From Clostridia bacterium (GTDB lineage Bacteria > Bacillota > Clostridia > Oscillospirales > Acutalibacteraceae): DNA of 37,231 bases. The notes under the pieces are model-generated. The model ran no database searches. It saw only the letters and a program-made list of their open reading frames with translations, and was not told the origin of the DNA. Position 1 is the stretch's first letter. The number at the start of each line of letters is the position of its first letter. This document shows, one piece after another, positions 11,507 through 37,066 of this stretch. The stretch covers positions 1 to 37,231 of the forward strand of contig JAGBSJ010000006.1 of the NCBI GenBank assembly GCA_017631955.1, written 5' to 3'. The position numbers and the translations under genes are program-made.

Positions 11507-11535
11507 TTGATTTATTTTGAGAACAAGTATATAAT
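11507..11535 (+). promoter_or_regulatory. promoter of the cobalamin-riboswitch operon
   Basis: TTGATT (11507-11512), 17 bases, TATAAT (11530-11535). Transcription should begin near 11542, just before the aptamer. Confidence 0.8.
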
Positions 11536-11544
11536 CATTTTGAT

Positions 11545-11735
11545 ATAGGTTAAGAATGTCGGGGAATCAGGTGAAAATCCTGAACGAGTCCGTCGCCGTA
11601 AGCAGATGAGTGATTTTCATACTCTTTGCCACAAGAGTAAAGTCATTGGGAAATCCCGAGAAGACGAAAATTGCATTTGAACTGCAAGTCGGAATACCCG
11701 GTTCTTGGAGATGAGCAGAGCAGAACCTAACACGC
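11545..11735 (+). ncRNA. cobalamin riboswitch (aptamer)
   Basis: The conserved blocks of the cobalamin aptamer are present in order: GGGGAATCAGGTGAAAATCC (11561-11580), then CGAGTCCGTCGCCGTAA, TGCCACAAGAGTAAAG (about 11627-11642), and the B12-box-like AGTCGGAATACCCGG (11687-11701). A 3' hairpin GGTTCT/AGAACC (11700-11705 and 11722-11727) with loop TGGAGATGAGCAGAGC is the likely kissing-loop partner. It precedes a lipoprotein and an ECF transporter subunit on the same strand, so corrinoid binding should lower their expression. Subclass (adenosyl- or hydroxo/methylcobalamin) was not determined. Confidence 0.9.
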
Positions 11736-11965
11736 CATAAATACAGCCCTTTAGCGAATTTTCACTTTTTCACCCTTGATTTGCGTCAGCAAACCTGCGG
11801 TCTCAAAAGCAAAAATTCATCTAAATTTCAAGTATTTCTGGTGCAGAGCAGTTTTTGCTGAATAAGTTTTTGACAAAGCACAATAAAAAGACCGTCAAAA
11901 CCGTATTAGATTCTGCTCTACTCATCTCTTTGTTCTTGTCGCGGAAACCGATATAGGAGCAAACT
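11736..11965 (+). promoter_or_regulatory. long expression platform of the cobalamin riboswitch
   Basis: This 230-base stretch holds no convincing gene. It contains an enclosed hairpin domain (GAATTTT 11756-11762 with AAAATTC 11812-11818, inner TTTGC/GCAAA at 11780-11793) and the segment TTCTGCTCTACTCATC (11911-11926). That segment pairs at 15 of 16 positions with the aptamer's 3' hairpin (11710-11725). Its core TGCTCTA can instead pair with TAGGAGCA (11954-11961), covering the Shine-Dalgarno before 11966. No strong intrinsic terminator is seen, so translational control is more likely than transcriptional. Confidence 0.5.
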
Positions 11966-26192: not shown

Positions 26193-26831
26193 TTATATTG
26201 ATGAAAATTCTATTGTATATGTACCCGGAGCATCTACACTCCAAGCCATACTTCCTGTTCCTTGTTCGCCAATGTTGAGCATACCGGCACTTGTACTTGT
26301 TCTTCTGACAACATTGCCGTTTGAATCCTTTATTACCATTCGTACAGTTGCTACTTTTTCTTCATCTATGCCGTCATCACAGCGTTTCATAGTAATACAT
26401 ATGTCAAACAAATAATTATTTTCATCATACCAATAACCATTATTAGTAGATGCCTTTACAACCTCAAACTCTGCGCCGAATGCAATTACCTTAACAGGAA
26501 GCTTTTGGGGAAAAACAAATTTTGGAGCTGTCTTTTGTGGCTTAGTTGTTGTTGGTTTGGTTGTTGTTGGTTTAGTTGTTGTAGGTTTACTTGTTGGCTT
26601 AGTAGTTGTCGACTTTGCCTCAGTAGGTTTCTGTGTTTTTTCTGTTGTTTGTGCCTCTGTTGTTGTGGTTGTAGTGGTAGTTGTAGTAGTTGTTGTGGTG
26701 GTAGTTGTAGTAGTTGTGCTTTCTGTTGTAGATTCATCTACAGATGTTTTATCGCCACCACAAGAGGTTAATGCAAAAAGCATTGATACAGACAATAAAA
26801 CTGAGCACCATTTTTTTACACTTTTTCCCAT
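26193..26831 (-). CDS. lipoprotein with threonine-rich linker, unknown function
   Basis: I do not recognise the folded part of this 212-residue predicted surface lipoprotein. A signal peptide ends in the lipobox ALTSC (Cys24). A linker follows (about 36-98), first a run of 20 threonines and then repeats of TTTKP. The C-terminal part (about 100-212) is probably a beta-sandwich (KVIAFGAEFEVVKASTNNGYWYDENN, GTYTIEFSSI). The frame opens with TTG at 26840, but AAGGGA is nine bases before ATG 26831. The Thr/Pro linker probably spans the cell wall. It is the first gene of the SanA-like/iolB run and follows a structured repeat. Confidence 0.75.
   Translation of the reverse strand: MGKSVKKWCSVLLSVSMLFALTSCGGDKTSVDESTTESTTTTTTTTTTTTTTTTTTTTEAQTTEKTQKPTEAKSTTTKPTSKPTTTKPTTTKPTTTKPQKTAPKFVFPQKLPVKVIAFGAEFEVVKASTNNGYWYDENNYLFDICITMKRCDDGIDEEKVATVRMVIKDSNGNVVRRTSTSAGMLNIGEQGTGSMAWSVDAPGTYTIEFSSI
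26658..26717 (-). repeat. poly-threonine coding tract with a duplicated 24-bp unit
   Basis: Twenty ACN codons in a row. On the coding strand a 24-bp unit (ACA ACT ACT ACA ACT ACC then two more codons) is repeated directly with a single base change, a sign of slippage or unequal crossing over. The mixed ACA/ACT/ACC use shows the tract is not a simple triplet repeat. Confidence 0.8.
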
Positions 26832-26852
26832 ATCTTTCAATCCCTTATTTTT

Positions 26853-26870: not shown

Positions 26871-26885
26871 ATCTCTTTGAACAGA

Positions 26886-26964
26886 TTTTTCGTAAGATAA
26901 TGTTGCCGAGGCGAAGTTGTATCGGGTATACCACGAGCCGAAAGCAACGAAGTATTACGGAAAA
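26886..26964. repeat. dispersed hairpin element, copy 1
   Basis: A 79-bp element between iolC and the lipoprotein gene, aligning base for base with copy 2 at 36216-36294 with about nine differences in the 70-bp core. It folds as nested helices: outer CGTAA/TTACG, middle GTTGC/GCAAC, inner GGC/GCC, GT/AC and an apical GTAT-CGGGT-ATAC hairpin. Many differences between copies fall at paired positions and keep pairing. It is GC-richer than its surroundings. Neither strand ends in a T-run, so it is not an ordinary terminator. Confidence 0.8.
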
Positions 26965-26978
26965 TATGCCAAAAAGAA

Positions 26979-27995
26979 TTATGCTCTTGCTATCATTTCA
27001 CCGTATTCTTCTTTTTCTTTTTTAATGAATTCCTTAACAGCGTCAACTGACGGCATATCTTGTGAGCAAGCGTGTGAAGCTACAAGCATTGCTGCAGAGG
27101 CAGAGCCGAATTCGAGAGCGTCAATAATTTCCCAACCCTCAAAAATACCATAAAGGAAAGCAGATGCGTAACCATCTCCGCCACCGAATGATTTAAGAAG
27201 TTTTACAGGGAATGGTTTGATTGAGTAGCTTTCGCCGTCATTTGTATAAGCAGTTGAGCCCTCTTTACCGTGTTTGATAATTACGATTTTAGCATTCTGA
27301 GAGTGCCAATATGCTGCAGTTTCTTTATCTGTCATACCTACTTTGATAAATTTCTCTGTAAGGTCATATTCTTCACGAGAGCCGAGAATAATATCTGCCT
27401 CACGAGCAACTGAAGAATAGTAAATTGCGATTTCGTCGCTATTTTTCCAGTTATATGCACGGTAGTCAATATCAAAAATAATTGGCACACCGTTTTTCTT
27501 TGCAAGTGCTACTGCTTTAAGAGCTGCTTCTCTTGATGGACTTTCTGCAAGAGCAGTGCCAGAAATCAAGATTGCTTTTGCTTTGTTGATATATTCTTCG
27601 TCAATATCTTCAACATCGAGTTTTAAGTCAGCTGCCTCGTTACGATACATAACGATTGAGCTTTCAGTTTCTGACTTAATTTCAGTAAATGTAAGGCCGA
27701 TTTTTTCGCCATTCTGACAACGCTTGATGTGAGAAGTGTCAATACCCTCGTTATCAAAATAATCTGTTACGAATGTGCCAAGCTGGTCATCTGAAACACG
27801 AGCAAAGAAACCACACTTTTTACCAAGACGAGCAAGACCAACTGCAATATTTGCAGGTGAGCCACCTAAATATCTCTTAAATGTTGTGCTTTCGTTAAGT
27901 GGGCAATAGTAGTCAACAGGGTTTAAGTCAACCGCCACACGACCTAAAAGGATTAAATCAAATTCTTTGTTGTTATCAAATTCAATGTATTTCAT
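26979..27995 (-). CDS. iolC: 5-dehydro-2-deoxygluconokinase
   Basis: Phosphorylates 2-deoxy-5-keto-D-gluconate with ATP, the fifth step of inositol breakdown. The 338-residue PfkB-family kinase has the N-terminal motif FKRYLGGSPANIAVGLARLG and the C-terminal active-site motif KSFGGGDGYASAFLYG with the catalytic Asp. FDIDYRAYNWKN is typical of IolC. It follows iolJ by 12 bp and shares its promoter. Downstream lies the hairpin element and then the lipoprotein gene. Confidence 0.94.
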   Translation of the reverse strand: MKYIEFDNNKEFDLILLGRVAVDLNPVDYYCPLNESTTFKRYLGGSPANIAVGLARLGKKCGFFARVSDDQLGTFVTDYFDNEGIDTSHIKRCQNGEKIGLTFTEIKSETESSIVMYRNEAADLKLDVEDIDEEYINKAKAILISGTALAESPSREAALKAVALAKKNGVPIIFDIDYRAYNWKNSDEIAIYYSSVAREADIILGSREEYDLTEKFIKVGMTDKETAAYWHSQNAKIVIIKHGKEGSTAYTNDGESYSIKPFPVKLLKSFGGGDGYASAFLYGIFEGWEIIDALEFGSASAAMLVASHACSQDMPSVDAVKEFIKKEKEEYGEMIARA

Positions 27996-28007
27996 AATGT
28001 TTTCTCC

Positions 28008-28850
28008 TTATCTTTCCATAAAACTGAAAACTTTAATATGTCTTTTAACATTTTCATAAACGCCGATTGCTTCTTGTCTGCTTAGCTCAAAATAGTTTGC
28101 CTTTTCAATTGGTTTGCAGTAATCAAGAGCGTATTTTGCAAGGTTATCAAAACTTGCAGTTGCAATATTTATTTTGCGAACACCAAGCATAATTGCTTGT
28201 TGGAACATTTCGTCTGTAATGCCTGTGCCACCGTGAAGAACAAGTGGAGTTTCAACCATTTTGTTAATATCGTCAAGCACATCAAAACGAAGATTTGGAA
28301 GCACAGGGTAATTACCGTGAGCGTTACCGATTGCAACGGCTAATGCATCAACCCCTGTTTCGTCACAGAAAAGCTTTGCATCATCAGGATTTGTGCAAAG
28401 GATTTCATGAGCCGCACCATCGCCCTCATTACCGCCTACGACGCCAAGTTCCGCCTCAACTGTTGCACCATATTTATCTGCCATTTCTCTGACTTGCTTT
28501 ACTGCTTTGATATTTTCTTCAAGGGGTAAGGTTGAGCCGTCAAACATAACAGAAGTAAATCCCATTTCTAATGCTTTTTGGACGGTTTCAATTTTAAGAC
28601 CATGGTCAAGGTGGACCGCTATATCAACCTTTGCATTTTTTGCGGCTGAAATCATCATAGGCCCCATAAGTTCAAGGGGTGAATTTTTAAGACGACACTC
28701 CGCAATCTGTAAAATTATTGGAGTGTTAAGTTCTTCTGCCGCCCATACGGCACCCATAACCATCTCCATATTACCAACACTGAAAGCCCCTACTGCAGTA
28801 TTGCTTTTTTCCGCATTTTCAAGGAGAGTTTTCATTGGAACTAATGCCAA
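28008..28850 (-). CDS. iolJ: 6-phospho-5-dehydro-2-deoxy-D-gluconate aldolase
   Basis: A class II (zinc) aldolase that splits 2-deoxy-5-keto-gluconate-6-phosphate to dihydroxyacetone phosphate and malonate semialdehyde. The 280 residues have zinc-site and catalytic segments VHLDHGLK, EAELGVVGG, AIGNAHGNY and LVLHGGTGI. The start is probably TTG at 28850, giving MALVPMKTLL, the usual class II aldolase N-terminus, with GGAG nine bases upstream; an ATG at 28835 lacks a ribosome site. The family also holds fructose-bisphosphate and tagatose-bisphosphate aldolases, and IolJ is assigned from its place directly before iolC behind the promoter at 28888-28916. Confidence 0.9.
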   Translation of the reverse strand: MALVPMKTLLENAEKSNTAVGAFSVGNMEMVMGAVWAAEELNTPIILQIAECRLKNSPLELMGPMMISAAKNAKVDIAVHLDHGLKIETVQKALEMGFTSVMFDGSTLPLEENIKAVKQVREMADKYGATVEAELGVVGGNEGDGAAHEILCTNPDDAKLFCDETGVDALAVAIGNAHGNYPVLPNLRFDVLDDINKMVETPLVLHGGTGITDEMFQQAIMLGVRKINIATASFDNLAKYALDYCKPIEKANYFELSRQEAIGVYENVKRHIKVFSFMER

Positions 28851-28887
28851 AACAACCCACTCCAATCCATTTTATTATAATCAATTT

Positions 28888-28916
28888 ATTGTATCACTTT
28901 ATACTTGTAAAATCAA
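28888..28916 (-). promoter_or_regulatory. iolJ-iolC promoter
   Basis: Minus strand: TTGATT (28916-28911), 17-base spacer, TACAAT (28893-28888). The start of transcription is about 30 bp before the iolJ start. No iol repressor gene or obvious operator was seen. Confidence 0.75.
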
Positions 28917-28972
28917 TGTTTTAACCATATTTTAGGTATAAAAAATAGTTGCAAAAAACTGTGCAAAAACAC

Positions 28973-29006
28973 AAAAAATCCGCTGACTTCAAGAGCCAAC
29001 GGATTT
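28973..29006 (-). terminator. terminator after the DUF5058 gene pair
   Basis: Stem AAATCCGYTG/CARCGGATTT (28976-28985 with 28997-29006) followed by six T on the minus strand. It separates the membrane-protein pair from the iolJ operon. Confidence 0.85.
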
Positions 29007-29018
29007 TATTTCTTTAGA

Positions 29019-29693
29019 TTATTTAACCCATTTAAGTTTCCACATAGCAAACGCGCCAACAACTGATGCGACAATACCAGGGAAGAGAAGTGTACCTGCA
29101 TCTAATGAAGGTGCTACAAGCAATACGCCAAGCATTACAAGAATTGGGAAAATTGAAATCTTCCAGTGCTTTGAAAAATAGCCTGCTGCCAACGCACCGA
29201 AAAGTGCTGGCTGAACCTGTTTGAATGCAGGCATTAAAAGTTCACTACTTGTAAATGCAGGAAGGAATGGCTTAAACACCAAAACACCAACTGCAATAAT
29301 AAGTGTTGTAACAATTGAAGAAGTTGCAATAGCAATTGTTGAAATTACTTCGCCTTCTTCACTGTTTGCCTTAACCTTTGCATTTTCCATAGCACCGATT
29401 GCGCAAGGAAGTTTAAGGTTTGTAATATTACCTGTTACGAATGAAAGATATGTACCACCCGCGCCAAGCATAGGTGTGTAAATAAGCACTTCAATAACCG
29501 CAAGAGACCAATAAAGCGGAATAAGCTTCATAAGACCACTCATAACACCACTTAAAGATGGCCATACACCTAAATACAAGCAAATTGAAAGTGGGAACAT
29601 AATAAGCACACAAAGTGCTGTAATACTTGAAACTCTACCCCAAGCATGGACACGGTCAAAATATGATTTTTCTGTTTTATTCTTTTTACTCAT
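29019..29693 (-). CDS. membrane protein, partner of DUF5058, possible transporter subunit
   Basis: A 224-residue integral membrane protein with about six helices after a polar start (MSKKNKTEKSYFDRVHAWGR). Recognisable stretches are GAGGTYLSFVTGNITNLKLPCAIGAME and EGEVISTIAIATSSIVTTLIIA. I do not know its function. The ATG at 29693, with GGAGGGG six bases upstream, is two bases after the stop of the DUF5058 gene, so the two form a pair. They lie immediately upstream of iolJ and are read in the same direction, but a terminator separates the units. A role in solute transport is inferred from topology and context. Confidence 0.72.
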   Translation of the reverse strand: MSKKNKTEKSYFDRVHAWGRVSSITALCVLIMFPLSICLYLGVWPSLSGVMSGLMKLIPLYWSLAVIEVLIYTPMLGAGGTYLSFVTGNITNLKLPCAIGAMENAKVKANSEEGEVISTIAIATSSIVTTLIIAVGVLVFKPFLPAFTSSELLMPAFKQVQPALFGALAAGYFSKHWKISIFPILVMLGVLLVAPSLDAGTLLFPGIVASVVGAFAMWKLKWVK

Positions 29694-29695
29694 AA

Positions 29696-30517
29696 TTAAC
29701 CCCTCCATTCAAAGATAGCAATTTCAGGTGGCAATACATTGTACATAACAACTGCAACCACCATCGCAAAAATCATACCAATAGGCATAACAAATGGTTC
29801 AAGCCAAGTAAGTTTGAATTTAGTTGCAACTTTTTCAAGAACCAATGAAGCAACAACCGCAACAACAAGTGTGATTACTGATAACACACCAGCACCGTCA
29901 CCGAATGTTTCTGGTTTACCTTTACCTGCAATAGCACGAGCAACGAATGCACCGATAAGACCGATGAATACTGCAGGAGTTAAAAGGTCCATAAAGCCAC
30001 CGATTCCGCTTGACTTCTTTTCTTTCTTTTCTGCTGATTCTTCTGCATTTTCATCTTTTTTACCCAAATTGAGAACCTTTTTATGCAAAGGTTTTGCAAC
30101 GAATGGTAACAACACGAGTGAGAAGCAGATACCAAGAGTCATAACCCATGCTACACCTGCAAAAACTTCAGGGTCTGTAATTACTGATGAAATTCCGCCC
30201 TCTTGGCCGAAAGCAGTCATAGCGTCGCCTGCTGCTTTAGTTTCATACAATAAGTTACCAAGAACTGATAATCTTACCCATGGGATTACAAGACCTAATG
30301 ATGGGGCTAAAACAATAACTGTAGCCAAAACTGATAATGCTGATGGAATTGTGAAAACTGCACTTGATGTAACAGCGTCACGCAACTTTTTCTTATCAAT
30401 GCCTAAGGTCTTACCTTGTTTCCATGCTTTAACAAGGAAGAAAATAGACTGTGCAAGAACAAACAAGATAACGCCGCCTGCAATCAAGTACAAACCTGTA
30501 CTTTCTTTGAAGTCCAT
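29696..30517 (-). CDS. DUF5058-family membrane protein
   Basis: A 273-residue membrane protein with about six to seven helices and a charged cytoplasmic loop (LGKKDENAEESAEKKEKKSSG). The N-terminal half, with SIFFLVKAWKQGKTLGIDKKKLRDAVTSSAVFTIPSALSVL and PWVRLSVLGNLLYE, fits the DUF5058 family as I remember it; biochemical function is unknown. The ATG at 30517 is nine bases after AGGAG; an earlier in-frame ATG at 30526 touches that site. It is the first gene of a pair with 29019-29693. A weak promoter may lie at about 30550-30580 on the minus strand (TTGATT, -10 uncertain). Confidence 0.72.
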   Translation of the reverse strand: MDFKESTGLYLIAGGVILFVLAQSIFFLVKAWKQGKTLGIDKKKLRDAVTSSAVFTIPSALSVLATVIVLAPSLGLVIPWVRLSVLGNLLYETKAAGDAMTAFGQEGGISSVITDPEVFAGVAWVMTLGICFSLVLLPFVAKPLHKKVLNLGKKDENAEESAEKKEKKSSGIGGFMDLLTPAVFIGLIGAFVARAIAGKGKPETFGDGAGVLSVITLVVAVVASLVLEKVATKFKLTWLEPFVMPIGMIFAMVVAVVMYNVLPPEIAIFEWRG

Positions 30518-30640
30518 ATCTTTCATCTCCTAAAAAAATTATGAATATATTAAAACATTTTTTTGCGACAAAATCAATAAAAAATGAAAATATTATTCCT
30601 TTATTGGCAATTTAATGATTTAATTGGTTAAAATTATATA

Positions 30641-30669
30641 TTGACAAAGCTAAAAAAATACTATAAAAT
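30641..30669 (+). promoter_or_regulatory. leuAB promoter
   Basis: TTGACA (30641-30646), 17-base spacer, TAAAAT (30664-30669). Start of transcription is expected near 30676. Confidence 0.85.
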
Positions 30670-30688
30670 ATAACACAATCAATTTAAT

Positions 30689-30957
30689 AGCCCCTATCAA
30701 AAGCAGTGAAGAAAACAAGACATAAAATACTCGCTTTCAGAGAGTTGCCGTCTGGTGCAAGGCAACACAGTGTTTATGTGTATAACTCATTTCGGAGTTG
30801 CATGGGTGAAATCATAGCCCATGACGGTTGACCCCGTTACAAAGTCAGGCCTTGTTGGAGGTCGCAGAGGTTGGCAAAAAGTCAACGAATTAGGGTGGTA
30901 CCACGGTAGAATTTTCCATCGTCCCTATCAATGTTTATATTGATAGTGGGCTTTTTT
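30689..30957 (+). ncRNA. T-box leader, leucine-specific, with terminator
   Basis: Senses uncharged tRNA-Leu. Stem I contains AGAGAG (30740-30745), an apical TTGCC/GGCAA hairpin with TGGTGCAA, and the specifier CTC (30786-30788) in the typical setting AACTCATTTCGGAG, coding leucine. The T-box sequence AGGGTGGTACCACGG is at 30892-30906; its TGGT pairs with ACCA, the 3' end of tRNA-Leu. The intrinsic terminator uses CTATCAAT/ATTGATAG (30925-30932 and 30939-30946) and six T. The leader runs straight into leuA. The transcript's first bases, AGCCCCTATCAA (30689-30700), can also pair with the terminator's 3' arm. Confidence 0.93.
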
Positions 30958-30975
30958 AATTTTAGGAGGAAAAAT

Positions 30976-32682
30976 ATGAAACAAGGTTGCGAAAAGTATA
31001 TTCCATTTCAACCAATCGACATTCCTGACAGACAGTGGCCAGGGAAAACAATCACTAAGCCACCAGTTTGGTGTTCAGTTGACTTGCGTGACGGTAATCA
31101 GGCGCTTATTGACCCAATGAATTTACAGGAAAAAATTGAGTATTTTAAAACACTTATCAATATCGGATTTAAAGAAATCGAAGTTGGTTTTCCATCTGCA
31201 TCTGAAACAGAATACGAAATTCTTCGTACTCTTATTGAAAAAGATTTAATTCCAGATGACGTTACAATTCAAGTGCTTGTTCAAAGTCGTGAACACCTTA
31301 TCAGAAAGACTTTTGAAGCAATTGATGGTGCTAAAAATGTAATCATTCATTTCTATAACTCAACATCTACTCTTCAAAGAAAAGTTGTTTTCAAGAAAGA
31401 TATGGACGGTGTTATTGATATTGCCGTTCAAGGTGCAAAACTCATTAAAGAGCTTACTGACGAGTTGAAATCGCAAAAAGATGTGAATATTCGTTATGAA
31501 TACTCTCCTGAAAGTTTTTCAGGCACTGAAATGGACAACGCTGTACTTATCTGTGAAAAAGTTATGGAAGCACTTGATATTAATGAAGATAATAAAATTA
31601 TTCTCAATCTTCCTGCAACAGTTGAAGGTAGCACTCCAAACGGACACGCAGACCAGATTGAATATTTCTGCAGAAAGCTTAAAAATCGCGAAAATGCTAT
31701 CATCAGCTTGCATCCACATAATGACAGAGGTACTGCAGTTGCAGCGGCTGAACTTGGTCTTTTAGCAGGTGCAGACAGAATTGAGGGTACACTTTTCGGT
31801 AACGGCGAGCGAACAGGTAACGTTGATATTGTTACACTTGCTCTTAATATGTACACACAGGGTATTGACCCTGGTCTTGATTTCTCAAATATGAACGAAA
31901 TCAAAGAAATGTTTGAGCGCACAACAAAAATGCCTGTTGACCCAAGAAAACCATACGGTGGCGAACTTGTTTTCACTGCATTCTCTGGCTCACACCAAGA
32001 TGCTATCAACAAGGGCAAAGAATATATGCGCACAAGCGGTACAGAGTATTGGGAAGTTCCATACTTACCTATCGACCCTGCCGATGTTGGCCGTGAATAC
32101 GAACCAATTATTCGTATCAACAGTCAGTCTGGCAAAGGCGGTGTTGCTTACATCATGGCAGAGTACGGCTACAATATGCCAAAAGCAATGCACCCAGAAT
32201 TTTCAAAGATTGTTCAGAAAGTTTGCGACGAAAAGGGAAAAGAACTGGCAAAAGAAGAAGTTTACTCACTTTTCAAACAGGAATACCTCAATGTTACAGG
32301 ACCTTACAAGCTTCTTAGCTATAAATTCTTTGAAGAAAGAGAACACGGCGAAGAACAGTCAAGAGTACACTTTGTTGGTACTGTTCAGTACAATGGCAAT
32401 GAGCCACAACAGATTGAGGGTATTGCGGCAGGTCCTATTGGCGCATTCTGTCAGGCGATGAATACAATCGGTCTTGGCGAATACAAGTTCATTGACTACT
32501 CTGAACACGCTATTTCTGTTGGCTCTGACTCAAAAGCGGTCAGCTACATTCACATTACAAATCCACAAGGCAAGAGCGTTTTCGGTATTGGTATTTCACA
32601 CAATATCAACTATGCATCTATCAAGGGTATTCTTTGTGCAGTTAACCGCTGTCTTCCAAATGTAGTAAGAGAGGAAAAATAA
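30976..32682 (+). CDS. leuA: 2-isopropylmalate synthase
   Basis: Condenses acetyl-CoA and 2-ketoisovalerate to 2-isopropylmalate, the committed step of leucine synthesis. The 568 residues match the longer LeuA type. The TIM-barrel active site shows [13 protein letters not shown] and the metal ligands in [32 protein letters not shown] is a family signature. A C-terminal regulatory domain (about 430-568) probably senses leucine. The ATG at 30976 has GGAGGAAAAAT upstream; an in-frame start at 30931 lies inside the leader terminator and is discarded. Expression is controlled by the leucine T-box. leuCD are not in the window. Confidence 0.96.
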
Positions 32683-32684
32683 TT

Positions 32685-33758
32685 ATGAAAGAATATAATA
32701 TTGTAGTATTAAAAGGTGACGGAATTGGTCCTGAAATAGTTGACGAAGCACTCAAAGTGCTTGATGCAACAGGCGAAAAATACGGATTTAAATTCAATTA
32801 TGATTATCAACTTATCGGCGGTGCGGCTATTGACGAAACAGGCGAGCCACTTCCACAGGCAACCGTTGAGGCATGCAAAAAGGCAGACTGTGTATTCTTA
32901 GGTGCAGTTGGTGGTCCTAAATGGGATGTACTCCCCGGTAATCAACGCCCTGAAAAGGGACTTTTAGGCATTCGCGGTGCATTAGGCCTTTATGCAAATC
33001 TTCGTCCTGCAAAGATTTTTGAGCCACTCAAATCTGCTTCTCCTATTAAAGATAGCATTATCGGTGACGGACTTGATATTATGATTGTTCGTGAGCTTAC
33101 AGGCGGTATTTACTTTGGCGAGCGTGGTCGCAAAGAAGTTGACGGTAACCCAGCAGCTTATGATACAGAAATGTATTCAGTTCCTGAAATCGAAAGAATT
33201 GCAAGAACTGCTTATGAAATGGCTATGAAGCGTAATAAGAAGCTTACAAGTGTTGATAAAGCAAATGTTCTTGAAAGTTCTCGCCTTTGGAGAGAAACTG
33301 TGATTAAAATGTCAGCAGAATACCCTGAGGTTGAACTTTCACATATGTATGTTGACAACTGCGCTATGCAGTTAGTACGAAATCCTGGTCAGTTCGATGT
33401 TATTGTTACATCTAACATTTTTGGCGATATTCTTTCTGACGAGGCATCTATGATTAGTGGTTCGATTGGTATGCTTGCAAGTGCATCTTTGGCAACTGGT
33501 AAAATGGGACTTTATGAGCCAATTCACGGTTCTTCACCTGATATTGCAGGTCAACAAAAAGCAAACCCACTTGCAACAATTCTTTCTGCAGCTATGATGC
33601 TTCAATATTCATTTGATGAAAAAGACGCTGCAAAAGCAATTGAAGATGCAGTTGACGAAGCATTAAGAATGGCTCGAACACCAGACATTTATGAAGATGG
33701 ATTTAACAAGGTTACAACTTCAGAAATGGGCGACCTTGTAGTATCATTGCTTAAATAA
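32685..33758 (+). CDS. leuB: 3-isopropylmalate dehydrogenase
   Basis: Oxidises and decarboxylates 3-isopropylmalate to 2-ketoisocaproate with NAD+. The 357 residues are full length. Marks are [11 protein letters not shown] near the N-terminus, VGGPKWD, the substrate-binding [59 protein letters not shown] (metal and substrate region) and [13 protein letters not shown], the NAD site. It starts two bases after leuA and shares its T-box. The isopropylmalate isomerase subunits needed between LeuA and LeuB must lie elsewhere. Confidence 0.97.
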
Positions 33759-33768
33759 AAATAACGGT

Positions 33769-33790
33769 GGGACGATGTTGGCATCGTCCC
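33769..33790 (+). promoter_or_regulatory. hairpin between leuB and the HAD gene
   Basis: Perfect 9-bp stem GGGACGATG/CATCGTCCC with loop TTGG, followed by CTACTTTTAG. The short T-run makes it a weak terminator or an attenuator within a longer transcript. The next gene's Shine-Dalgarno AGGTGA follows directly. Confidence 0.55.
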
Positions 33791-33807
33791 CTACTTTTAG
33801 GTGAATT

Positions 33808-34644
33808 ATGAAAACACTTTATATCAGCGATATGGATGGTACTCTTTTACAGAATAACGGTAAAATGAGTGAATACACCAAAGAAAAACTGAATGATTTT
33901 TACAAAAAAGGTATACCTTTCTCTGTGGCTACTGCTCGCAGTATGGTTAGTGCTACTCCACTTTTAGAAGGTGTGCATTTTGCCGCCCCTATTGTGCTTA
34001 TGAATGGTGTTTTTGTGTATGATACAGAAACAAAAAAGGCGGTTAAATACCACGAAATAGAGCATTCGGCACTTGAGAAAATTCTTGATTGCTTTTACGA
34101 GAAAAATCTTCATCCTTTCATGTTTTTATATGGTGATGATTATAAACTTTCAATTAAATACACCGAGTTTGACAACGAGGGTATGAAAGAATTTTATGAT
34201 ATGCGAGTTGATATGCTTGAGGGCAGATTTACAAAAACAGATGACCTTACAAACATAGAAAAAGGTCAACACCCTGTGTATGTTAACTACTACGCGTTAC
34301 CACAATATCTTGACGATGTTGTTGAGAAGCTTAAATCAATCCCCGAAATCGATTTTGCATATTATAAAGACTCATATTCTGACGATTGGCTTATTGAAAT
34401 TTATGCAAACACCGCATCAAAGGCAAACGGCGCTCGCGAAGTAGCCGAAATCGTAGGTGCAGATAGAATTACAGCTTTCGGCGATAATCTTAACGATTTA
34501 GTAATGCTTGGTGGCGCCGACACTGCGGTTGCGGTAGAAAATGCCGTACCAAAAGTTAAAGAAATTGCAGATGTTATAATCGGTACAAATACAGACGACA
34601 GTGTTGTAAAATATATTGAAGAAAAAGAAAACGCCCGAGGTTAA
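33808..34644 (+). CDS. Cof-type HAD-superfamily hydrolase
   Basis: A cytoplasmic phosphatase of the Cof/YbiV-like (HAD IIB) group, acting on sugar or nucleotide phosphates of unknown identity. The 278 residues contain motif I SDMDGTLL (Asp8 nucleophile, Asp10), motif II SVATARS, the lysine region NTASKANGAREVAE and motif IV FGDNLNDLVML, with a mobile cap domain of about 85-190. It follows leuB on the same strand after a hairpin. Substrate cannot be inferred. Confidence 0.88.
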   Translation: MKTLYISDMDGTLLQNNGKMSEYTKEKLNDFYKKGIPFSVATARSMVSATPLLEGVHFAAPIVLMNGVFVYDTETKKAVKYHEIEHSALEKILDCFYEKNLHPFMFLYGDDYKLSIKYTEFDNEGMKEFYDMRVDMLEGRFTKTDDLTNIEKGQHPVYVNYYALPQYLDDVVEKLKSIPEIDFAYYKDSYSDDWLIEIYANTASKANGAREVAEIVGADRITAFGDNLNDLVMLGGADTAVAVENAVPKVKEIADVIIGTNTDDSVVKYIEEKENARG

Positions 34645-34663
34645 TCCCTCGAGCGTTCTTTTT
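34630..34663 (+). terminator. terminator at the convergent HAD/LRR gene ends
   Basis: Stem AACGC-CCGAGG/CCTCG-AGCGTT (34630-34656, one mismatch) followed by CTTTTTATA. The HAD stop codon is in the loop. Confidence 0.8.
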
Positions 34664-36032
34664 ATATAATTGTTGTTAGTCCATTAAGTGCCAAATCAAG
34701 ATAAAGTGCATCAAAACTATCAACCGCACCATCATAGTTCAAATCGCAACGGTTAAACATATAATTATCGGTAATTTCTGCCGTTGCAGATGCAATTTCC
34801 ACAAGTAATTTATAGTCATCTTCATTGACCTTGCCGTTACCGTCTGCATCGCCTTTTATTGTTGATGGGCCGATGTCATTAAGGAACAAATCAAGAATTA
34901 CAACATCAAGTCCGTCAACTGCGCCATCTTCATTCATATCACCCGCAAGCATAATCGCGTGAGTTTGATACTGCCCTAAAGTTGAAATATCATAAAGAAT
35001 TTTGTAATCTTCTGCATCCAGTTTGCCGTTGAAATTCACATCCCCTTTTATGACGTTTCCAATGTCAACAAAATTAATGCCACTTTCTTTCGCATAAGTT
35101 TGAGCATAAGAATCTGCATAGCCATAAATTGTGGCGTCTGTTTTATCTGCAAAAGCATTTGGGTTAATACTTGTAACAGTTGTAGGGATTACTGCGCTAG
35201 TCCCTGTCAATGCACCACCGATTATATGAGTTGCACCATCTTTGATTACTGCTTCAGTTGATTTTGTACCCACAACACGAGTGCCCATATAAAGCACATC
35301 GTTTTCCCAATTTTCAGGGTTGTTATAAAATCCAGTGTTATAAATAGCGTTAGCGCTGAATTCAACGCCATCAGGAATATTCAGGTTTTTAAGCGAAGTA
35401 CAATCGGCAAATCCATAATCACCTATTACTTTCAATGATGGTGGAAAACCTACAGCAGTTGCACCGCTATTACCTTTGAATGCACCATCTGCCACTACAA
35501 GCGTGCCATTTTTGATACTGTAACTGCCTGCTAATTCTATTTCAACAAGTATTGTATCAAGATATAAATATTTAAGTATTGATGCGCTTATATCTTCCCA
35601 ATCGATTGAGCCACCTGTTGTAATATCTGAATTTTTGATTTTCCAATTAGTTTTATTATTATAATACGCTGTGTTATAAATCGCCTTTTCGCCAAAATGC
35701 TTTATGGTTGTTGGCACAAAAATTGTTGCAAGAGAAGTACAATGCAAAAATGCCCCCTTGCCTATATCTTCAATGCCCTCACTTATTGTTACACTTGTCA
35801 GTGTGTTATTGCTTTCGAAAGCATAATCGGTAATTTTGACAACTGATTTGCCGTCGATTTCGGCAGGGATTGTAAGGGTTGCATTGCTACCTGAATACCC
35901 TGTAATTACAATTTTTTCGTTTTCGGTTTCATAAGAAAATTCGTTGTAAGAAAGAGCAAAAGACGGTGTTGCAGATGTAAATATGCAAAATAGCATTGCA
36001 ATGCAAAGCATTGTTGATATAAACTTTTTCAT
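34662..36032 (-). CDS. secreted BspA-type leucine-rich repeat protein with two dockerins
   Basis: Exported 456-residue protein. A signal peptide (MKKFISTMLCIAMLFCIFTS, cut about residue 26) precedes BspA-like LRR_5 repeats (about 45-120 and 170-300; LTSVTISEGIEDIGKGAFLHCTSL, PPSLKVIGDYGFADCTSLKNLNI). Two complete dockerins follow in tandem: 329-385 (GDVNFNGKLDAEDY and AGDMNEDGAVDGLDVVILDL) and 393-449 (GDADGNGKVNEDDY and CDLNYDGAVDSFDALYLDL). Each has two F-hand calcium loops. A pair of dockerins implies attachment at two cohesin sites or higher affinity. An enzymatic domain is not seen. The -35/-10 at 36064-36092 drives it. Confidence 0.9.
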   Translation of the reverse strand: MKKFISTMLCIAMLFCIFTSATPSFALSYNEFSYETENEKIVITGYSGSNATLTIPAEIDGKSVVKITDYAFESNNTLTSVTISEGIEDIGKGAFLHCTSLATIFVPTTIKHFGEKAIYNTAYYNNKTNWKIKNSDITTGGSIDWEDISASILKYLYLDTILVEIELAGSYSIKNGTLVVADGAFKGNSGATAVGFPPSLKVIGDYGFADCTSLKNLNIPDGVEFSANAIYNTGFYNNPENWENDVLYMGTRVVGTKSTEAVIKDGATHIIGGALTGTSAVIPTTVTSINPNAFADKTDATIYGYADSYAQTYAKESGINFVDIGNVIKGDVNFNGKLDAEDYKILYDISTLGQYQTHAIMLAGDMNEDGAVDGLDVVILDLFLNDIGPSTIKGDADGNGKVNEDDYKLLVEIASATAEITDNYMFNRCDLNYDGAVDSFDALYLDLALNGLTTII

Positions 36033-36063
36033 TTCTGCACCGTCCTTTCGTGATTATGGAAGT

Positions 36064-36092
36064 ATTTTAACATTATTGTATTGATTTTGCAA
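36064..36092 (-). promoter_or_regulatory. promoter of the LRR-dockerin gene
   Basis: Minus strand: TTGCAA (36092-36087), 17 bases, TAAAAT (36069-36064). AAAGGA lies between it and the start codon. Confidence 0.7.
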
Positions 36093-36152
36093 GGAATAAG
36101 ACAAATTATAGTTTGGAGGGATGAATGTTTTTTAACAAACTCCAATTTGAAG

Positions 36153-36177
36153 AAAAAGGTGGGAAAACTCCCACCTT
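36153..36177 (-). terminator. terminator downstream of the kdgK-eda transcript
   Basis: Stem AAGGTGGGA/TCCCACCTT (36156-36164 and 36169-36177) followed by TTTTT on the minus strand. It would end transcripts coming from eda after they cross both hairpin elements. The rest of 36033-36152 holds the promoter above and an AT-rich stretch with an imperfect TTGGAG/CTCCAA inverted repeat; no gene was seen. Confidence 0.8.
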
Positions 36178-36215
36178 AATAACAAATTCAAATAACAATA
36201 TACAAATAGATTTAT

Positions 36216-36294
36216 TTTTTCGCAAGACAATGTGGCAGAGGCGAAGCTGTATCGGGTATACCGCGAGCCGAAAGCCACGACGTATTGCGGAAAA
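36216..36294. repeat. dispersed hairpin element, copy 2
   Basis: 79-bp element, ungapped against copy 1. Pairing: outer CGCAA (36221-36225) with TTGCG (36285-36289); middle GTGGC (36232-36236) with GCCAC (36274-36278); GGC (36240-36242) with GCC (36267-36269); apical GTAT (36249-36252) with ATAC (36258-36261). Compared with copy 1, the changed bases in these helices are compensated on both sides. Confidence 0.85.
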
Positions 36295-36320
36295 ATAACC
36301 TTTTCTATAAATTGAATTAT

Positions 36321-36400
36321 TTTTTTGTTAGGCAATCTTACCGAGACGAAGCTGTATCAGGTATACCGCGAGCCGAGAGCAAGGAAGCATAACGGGAAAA
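36321..36400. repeat. dispersed hairpin element, copy 3
   Basis: Same orientation as copy 2, about 105 bp away, and more diverged. The apical part CGAAGCTGTATCAGGTATAC and CCGCGAGCCGA is nearly identical, while the outer helix is TGTTA/TAACG and the middle helix CTTAC/GCAAG with one mismatch. Pairing survives although the bases differ. Confidence 0.8.
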
Positions 36401-36409
36401 TAATCAATT

Positions 36410-37066
36410 TTATTTGTTTGCGAGTTCTGCACGAGCGAGTTTAATATTCTCTACAAAACGCTTACCTGTTTCTGTAATCTTCTTGTAGTCGCCTGTTTTA
36501 GCACCTGCTGTAAGTGATGAACCAGCACCAACTGCTACCGCACCTGCTTTAATCCATTCACCAACGTTGTCAGCATCAACGCCACCTGTTGGCATCATTT
36601 TTGCATAAGGAATTGGGCCTTTAATGTCTTTGATAATCTTTGGTCCGAAAAGGTCAGCAGGGAAAACTTTAAGAATATCTGCACCGTTTTCCATAGCAAG
36701 AAGTCCTTCACGAACTGTCATAATGCCGGGCATCATTGGAACTCTGTAACGGTTACAAAGTTTGAGTGTTTCAATATCAAGAGCAGGGCTAACGATATAT
36801 TCTGCACCTGAAAGCATAGCAATTCTTGCTGTTGCTGCATCAAGAACGGTACCTGCACCAAGAATGATTTCTTCTGGTGTATATCTCTTTGCAAGTTCTT
36901 CAATAACTTTGTCTGCGTGTGGAACTGTGAATGTAAGCTCGATAGCAGCAACGCCACCTTCGATACAAGCATCAGTAATTCTGATAGCCTGGTCAACTGT
37001 TTCTGCACGAACAACTGCTACGATACCACAGTCCTGAATTCGGGTAATAATTTTTTCTTTATCCAT
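36410..37066 (-). CDS. eda: KDPG/KHG aldolase (bifunctional 2-keto-3-deoxy-6-phosphogluconate aldolase)
   Basis: Cleaves 2-keto-3-deoxy-6-phosphogluconate to pyruvate and glyceraldehyde-3-phosphate, the last step for hexuronates and the Entner-Doudoroff route. The 218-residue class I aldolase has the Schiff-base Lys133 in ADILKVFPAD, Glu43 in AIELTFTVP, VVRAET near the N-terminus and the phosphate loop MMPTGGVDADN. It follows the KDG kinase gene with AAGGAG overlapping that stop, so the two are coupled. Two hairpin elements and a terminator lie downstream. Confidence 0.95.
   Translation of the reverse strand: MDKEKIITRIQDCGIVAVVRAETVDQAIRITDACIEGGVAAIELTFTVPHADKVIEELAKRYTPEEIILGAGTVLDAATARIAMLSGAEYIVSPALDIETLKLCNRYRVPMMPGIMTVREGLLAMENGADILKVFPADLFGPKIIKDIKGPIPYAKMMPTGGVDADNVGEWIKAGAVAVGAGSSLTAGAKTGDYKKITETGKRFVENIKLARAELANK

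Follow-up and report, generated by a model that had tools for sequence, protein, structure and literature searches.

A multicopy intergenic hairpin of Clostridia with a core shared with the Correia element of Neisseria

The window analyzed here, meaning the whole 37,231-nt stretch of contig JAGBSJ010000006.1 from a Clostridia bacterium (source genome 1.40 Mb, 77.65% complete), carries three copies of an element of about 80 nt. The element is a real, conserved, multicopy hairpin; its transposition and its function in the cell are predictions. Small intergenic mobile palindromes are a known kind of element, and this one is probably a non-autonomous mobile hairpin resembling a miniature inverted-repeat transposable element (MITE), the clostridial branch of a multi-phylum group that has a core in common with the Correia element of Neisseria. 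A preliminary description of the sequence had named, among its options, a family like MITEs or like repetitive extragenic palindromes (REPs). That option is the best supported, because the genome holds 11 copies with a patchy distribution among relatives, and because inverted ends bound the elements of clostridial relatives and ends of an IS630-family insertion sequence (IS) bound those of Psychrobacter. The length and end tags of REPs and a link to their associated tyrosine transposases (RAYTs) were not found.

Structure and copies of the hairpin

The three copies were read on the + strand at 26885..26965, 36215..36295 and 36320..36400, where the preliminary description had placed them, with copies 2 and 3 forming a 105-nt tandem. 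A covariance model built from eight copies of the window's genome only (R1) scored them in that genome at E values of 1.4e-23, 1.3e-24 and 1.0e-21, and found no fourth copy in the window at E <= 5. The GA-rich + strand of every copy folds as one rod with nested helices (z -3.66, -5.58 and only -1.51, 19 of 200 shuffles being as stable as copy 3). The tips lie at 26913..26937 (+; GAAGTTGTATCGGGTATACCACGAG, a compensated variant identified from the sequence and the alignment), 36243..36267 (+) and 36348..36372 (+), the last two matching the tip pattern given below. The compensatory changes first reported by eye are all present in the alignment: T-A/C-G/T-A and A-T/A-T/T-A in the outer helix, G-C/G-C/C-G and T-A/G-C/T-A in the middle helix, and T-A/C-G/C-G at the inner pair. 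Likewise, the nested fold, the absence of a T-run at the end of either strand (judged by reading the sequence) and a GC content above that of the surroundings were borne out (0.43, 0.52 and 0.46 against 0.28-0.42 in 80-base flanks, which for copies 2 and 3 each overlap the neighboring copy's element).

Covariation extends well beyond the window. Among the eight same-genome copies, both sides change in 12 of 28 pairs and 94.1% of cells pair, a result equaled by none of 500 shuffles; sliding the structure along the alignment lowers pairing to 34-57%. With 31 copies from several phyla, in an alignment that had been fitted to the structure, both sides change in 23 of the 28 pairs (176 cells), again with 0 of 500 shuffles equal. 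The core is described as one long hairpin on the GA-rich strand, in which the stems between conserved motifs drift by compensatory change. Its tip, GAAGC-U-GUAY/RUAC-H-GCGAG, is laid out as C-GAA-GC-U-GUAY loop RUAC-H-GC-GA-G, and one strand has internal loops of G.A type; the flanks RGACRAGGC and CAACGMAGYA are conserved and the outer ends are variable. When 116 tip instances (loci L057-L176) were taken with 45 nt on each side, 94 folded better than their arm-shuffled versions (z<-2), and the + strand was the more stable folder in 106.

Two checks proposed in the preliminary description, a covariance-model search of the genome and a mapping of copies against gene 3' ends, were both made. R1 returned 11 copies at E <= 0.0056, together with a 29-nt remnant (E 0.31), and BLAST added one further fragment on contig 38. 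Counting each of two tandem pairs once, the 11 copies occupy nine loci. At eight of these, a gene on the opposite strand has its stop codon -1 to 15 nt from the 3' edge of the element; at the ninth (contig 12), its 5' edge overlaps the end of a same-strand gene by 11 nt.

Distribution within the family and across phyla

Within the family of the source organism, R1 gave weak matches in four other genera. Some of these retain the tip with new stem arms (G057, G162), and others keep the flanks with a changed tip (G110, G126). The pattern GAAGCTGTAYN{3,7}RTACNGCGAG was present in 23 of 398 family genomes and 13 of 135 genera, and its reversed control in none; in G137 and G396, which belong to the 23, every match lies inside an open reading frame (ORF). 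The spread is patchy: one species has 40 tip copies, whereas the window's genus has none in its five other genomes.

A scan of named genomes for the tip pattern returned at least 116 stretches, mostly from Clostridia and many from ruminant gut. Among the matches listed, 37 are titled outside Bacillota, including two inside ORFs (L150, L155) and two whose titles say just 'bacterium'. Single tip matches prove nothing, because by our own arithmetic tens of chance matches are expected in 257 Gb. Seven clostridial copies served to train a flank matrix (5' RGRCRAGGC, 3' CAACGNNGYA). Applied to the other-phyla tip loci within the first 80 matches listed, one of which was too short, it reached p<0.05 against shuffled arms in 12 of 21 instances, among them 8 of 9 from Bacteroidetes, 2 of 2 from Fibrobacter and 2 of 3 from Myxococcota; it was significant for none of five matches judged coding.

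Broader searches used a second covariance model (R2) of 31 sequences (alignment A4), which matched 20 of the 21 genomes behind the named loci at E <= 0.01, 16 of them with five or more copies. R2 was trained on most of these 21 genomes, but on no Massilia or Elusimicrobium genome and not on the first Spartobacteria genome. Copies numbered 7 to 37 in four Bacteroidetes genomes, 25 in Flavobacteriales, 14 in Myxococcales, 27 in Enhygromyxa, 4 and 17 in Spartobacteria, 7 in Comamonas, 30 in Massilia, 25 in Psychrobacter, 12 in a metagenome-assembled genome (MAG) of Bifidobacteriaceae, 7 in Glassbacteria, 5 in Elusimicrobium, 2 and 2 in Fibrobacter, 3, 6 and 7 in Clostridia, and 0 in Peregrinibacteria. 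On 40 kb of E. coli, the 21 R2 matches at E <= 10 started at 0.065, which is about chance level. The one-genome model R1, run on 66.6 kb of loci pre-fetched with R2, reached E values of 1.6e-8 in Bacteroidetes, 3.6e-8 in Spartobacteria, 1.9e-7 in Myxococcales, 2.6e-5 in Massilia and 9.5e-5 in Psychrobacter. At one Comamonas locus (L088, 3254-4730), the element stands amid eleven tRNA gene matches.

A core in common with the Correia element

Two hundred genomes drawn evenly from the Psychrobacter phylum included 12 with R2 matches at E <= 1e-4, the centre genome among them. One of them, G524, lies outside the R2 training set and holds nine copies (best E 5.4e-10). The three G524 copies that were read start with tatagtggattaaATTTAAATCAGGACAA, letter for letter a Correia repeat given in PMC5039591 (Methods), and we infer that G524 is a Neisseria. 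R1 also matches these Correia-type copies (E 3-4e-5 in the same 66.6 kb). Judged from sequence and the two models, the window element shares its core with the Correia element (also NEMIS or CREE): both models find the flank GGACAAGGCG, a GTAC/GTAC tip stem and the flank GGCAACGCCGTA, and both elements are intergenic. The Correia tip is GCAGACAGTAC..GTACGGCAAG and that of the window element is GAAGCTGTAT..ATACCGCGAG; intermediate tips occur in a clostridial locus (L093, GCAGACAGTAT..ATACGGCAAGG) and in Massilia (L259, GAAGACAGTAC..GTACGGCGAG).

The ends differ. The window copies lack the Correia ends TATAGTGGATTAA (26-29 bp, tatagtggattaa.., as printed in PMC5039591) and finish in T/A-rich arms. 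The Correia element duplicates a TA target. The window copies have no sharp boundaries at which to read such a duplication, and no empty site was found for them. Since the core is shared and the ends are not, the window element does not count as a Correia element proper. The short form of the Correia element, about 105 bp (PMC2229807), is near the 105-nt tandem period of copies 2 and 3. Another paper calls the mechanism that mobilizes Correia elements undetermined and reports them as RNase III substrates (PMC2649163).

Selection on the folded strand and orientation to genes

Mismatches between the two arms reveal which strand is folded. On the + strand, G.T exceeds A.C by 12:3 in the element's own genome (6 elements), 66:17 in named Clostridia (68 elements), 59:10 in family genomes (55 elements) and 37:15 in other phyla (27 elements), with poorly aligned arms excluded and the element sets partly overlapping. 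This excess shows that the GA strand is under selection for folding as a single strand, be it RNA or single-stranded DNA.

Orientation was counted over 155 tip instances, of which 36 inside ORF calls were set aside and 119 used. For the right-hand gene, 78 instances run antisense to the element, 24 run in the sense direction and 17 are unassigned (p 7.7e-8), and the left-hand gene is unbiased (53 vs 48, 18 unassigned); these counts come from crude longest-ORF calls and treat copies of one genome as if they were independent. The adjoining mRNA mostly corresponds to the strand opposite the folded GA strand, which counts against a simple stabilizer in the 3' untranslated region (3'-UTR) and fits mobility or an antisense RNA. 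The transcript-end stabilizer among the options first proposed fits the placement behind stop codons but agrees poorly with this strand. Terminators near the element (47 of 155 and 37 of 155 on its two sides, against 29 of 324 and 27 of 324 at control positions) were also tried as a cue to orientation, and the split of 47 vs 37 was not decisive.

Outer ends and candidate mobilizers

The Psychrobacter elements have TATAGTCAATTCAA / TATAGTCGGCTCAA as their ends. A 911-bp IS of the same organism, read at three places, has the same ends, in one case with a changed last base, and two of its frames match HTH_Tnp_IS630 (6.7e-19) and DDE_3 (4.9e-31). A core set between ends that match a resident IS630-family IS is what MITEs of the IS630-Tc1/mariner group also show. 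As a general mobilizer, IS630 was rejected: the ends matched in Psychrobacter only, and DDE_3 occurred in 4 of the 69 genomes searched and was absent from G524.

Clostridial relatives (L311-L325) have elements of 155-227 bp bounded by GGRRCTGTYGCA inverted ends. In a list from seven genomes, no IS-sized inverted pair was found that might be the autonomous partner of these ends; only pairs of 155-227 bp were read. Many of the GGRRCTGTYGCA-ended elements have A-rich and T-rich flanks and may act as two-way terminators. In G324, 8 of the 10 copies read start TGCTTGTCGAAA.. beside differing terminator-like hairpins (by eye). Some copies at L004 and in G324 are adjoined by another palindromic repeat of GTCATTCTGAGCGAAGCGAAGAATC type, which we take to be common in gut genomes. 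At five loci (L032, L042, L159, L066, L170), the element and some neighboring sequence of the 3' region lie between direct repeats of 24-41 nt; long direct repeats of this kind were considered as target duplications and, on reading, taken as tandem or larger duplications of the 3' region that do not start at the hairpin ends. Given the differing ends and the DDE_3 and Y1_Tnp results (the latter given below), the ends and the mobilizer appear to be lineage-specific or unassigned and the core constant.

Weighing the explanations

How such an element might spread and persist can be put in a few conditional steps. A transposase acting in trans would recognize the outer ends, which differ by lineage and are of IS630 type in Psychrobacter. 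What would preserve the folded GA strand is its recognition, as RNA or as single-stranded DNA, by an enzyme or host factor. Copies would persist mainly just behind stop codons, where they may do least harm, and mostly in the orientation that puts the less stable strand into the adjoining mRNA.

Several results weigh against a MITE-like element with a widely shared core. Among the 116 tip instances, 22 fold no better than shuffles. Candidate target duplications are missing from 13 of 15 bounded elements of clostridial relatives, the other two showing 2 bp, and neither a clean empty site nor a target duplication was found for the window copies; five congeners keep the kinase gene next to copy 1 (87-92% identity) but have other genes behind it. 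DDE_3 is in none of the 23 tip-bearing family genomes, the window's included, a difference from MITEs of the IS630 group, and Y1_Tnp is unlinked to the tip (16 of 23 genomes with tip copies, 19 of 35 without). The flank matrix was significant in 0 of 1 instance from Spartobacteria, 0 of 3 from Beta- and Gammaproteobacteria and 0 of 3 from three other phyla. Finally, the loci on which R1 was tried across phyla are not a random sample, and the E values of both models are rough.

Other explanations account for parts of these data. The hairpin could be a cis-acting RNA element of gene 3' ends that is transcribed as part of the stretch from stop codon to terminator, sets mRNA decay, as a nuclease site or exonuclease block, and is kept for that function. 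The stop codons within -1 to 15 nt at eight of nine loci, the 78 to 24 bias of the right-hand gene and the precedents reported for ERIC in Yersinia, which alters mRNA decay (PMC2229807), and for Correia elements as RNase III substrates (PMC2649163) agree with this. The folded strand, however, is mostly opposite that mRNA, the mRNA strand is the weaker folder (the + strand being the more stable in 106 of the 116 instances), and the genus otherwise lacks the tip pattern in all five of its further genomes; we consider such a role unlikely. That unrelated repeats have converged on one tip and one pair of flanks through binding by a single conserved host factor, the core having no common descent, would explain why outer ends vary by lineage and why the flank motifs are weak in several phyla, yet a model from one genome found the tip with both flanks, in a common order that spans about 80 nt, so that we hold convergence to be improbable.

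A REP element moved by a RAYT, a Y1 tyrosine transposase, would also be a strand-specific intergenic hairpin, but the element is about 80 nt against 20-40 for REPs (PMC3733652), no relaxed tip was seen near 20 Y1 loci, and Y1_Tnp gave no match in the window's genome at its 77.65% completeness. With Y1_Tnp presence unrelated to tip copies, RAYTs were rejected as the mobilizer, and this explanation is very improbable. An ordinary intrinsic terminator, or a repeat derived from one, could explain the excess of terminators near the element and the A-rich and T-rich flanks common among the bounded elements of clostridial relatives; it is hardly credible for the window copies, which have no T-run and, in the case of copies 3 and 2, are followed by a separate terminator.

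The MITE-like reading can be carried further, in a direction that we regard as speculative and rather doubtful. The core may be an ancient hairpin module whose GA strand is read by a conserved host factor and which sits inside unrelated transposon ends in at least 8 phyla. Correia elements, the clostridial repeats and perhaps ERIC and BRE would then be lineage-specific shells, and the core itself the selected, heritable unit, a bacterial counterpart of the portable body of a short interspersed nuclear element (SINE).

Surroundings of the window copies

Copy 1 lies 13 nt from the stop codon of a pfkB-family kinase gene (26979..27995, -; PF00294, 3.8e-53), and copy 3 lies 9 nt from that of a KDPG/KHG aldolase gene (36410..37066, -; PF01081, 6.6e-43). 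Past copy 2, the sequence and a terminator scan place a terminator-like hairpin at 36158..36175 (-), with T's after it on that strand. Thus the order along the mRNA behind the aldolase is stop codon, copy 3, copy 2 and terminator-like hairpin. On the other side of copy 1, the ORF 26193-26840 (-) contains imperfect 15-base direct repeats at 26498-26723, a threonine-rich stretch, and the protein encoded at 34662-36032 (-) combines BspA-type leucine-rich repeats with a dockerin domain. Elsewhere in the window are a T-box leader at 30697-30929 (+; 116.4 bits), ahead of the ORF 30931-32682, and a Cobalamin riboswitch at 11516-11714 (+; 67 bits), by which an 89% inverted repeat pairs 11708-11734 with 11902-11928.

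Comparison with known repeat families

At gathering score, Rfam gives the T-box and cobalamin matches only in the window, and nothing at the element in 18 other loci; the best weak match over the copies is Arrc14, at 23.6 bits against a cut-off of 99. The copies therefore match no Rfam family, and the preliminary description, which recognized no named family, holds to that extent; what it missed is the relationship of the core to the Correia element.

The window element is not an enterobacterial repetitive intergenic consensus (ERIC) or a REP in the strict sense. ERIC, found in Enterobacteriaceae and Vibrionaceae (review PMC10969869), shares a hairpin with a GAGC-TTAC/GTAA-GTGA tip (ERIC/IRU) and a reported 3'-UTR placement (PMC2229807), and its effect on mRNA decay in Yersinia is reported there to depend on orientation. 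Neither R1 nor R2 detected ERIC in 40 kb of E. coli, and the Pantoea copy reached an R2 E value of only 0.068. In an arm test on five given loci, less L203, which was without the searched tip, the arms of two E. coli copies and the Pantoea copy resembled a 36-sequence panel more than shuffles did (z 6.0, 5.1 and 5.1), and did so only when oriented the same way, whereas a Serratia copy showed no resemblance (z 1.1). The flank-motif matrix gave p values of 0.06, 0.20, 0.002 and 0.455 on four ERIC copies, and a sequence-only profile run on the ERIC loci had its best E of 0.7 elsewhere in E. coli. Taken together, the sequence comparisons are at most suggestive of an ERIC kinship of the core. REPs (GTAG and CGTC families) share the character of intergenic single-strand hairpins behind genes but are 20-40 bp long and end-tagged, with GTAG types linked to RAYTs (PMC3733652); the window element shows none of these three features. 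The beta-proteobacterial repeat element (BRE), of 75-91 bp, intergenic and often tandem in Bordetella and Comamonadaceae (PMC3110155), resembles it by its published description, and R2 finds 7 copies in a Comamonas and 30 in a Massilia.

We found no statement in the open-access literature of a clostridial family of this kind or of a Correia core shared across phyla; Correia, ERIC and BRE have so far been described group by group. A core of this type explains one class of repeats that stand without annotation in many gut MAGs. It also provides a comparative handle, with ends that vary around a constant core, and thereby turns the identity of the mobilizer and of whatever reads the hairpin into testable questions.

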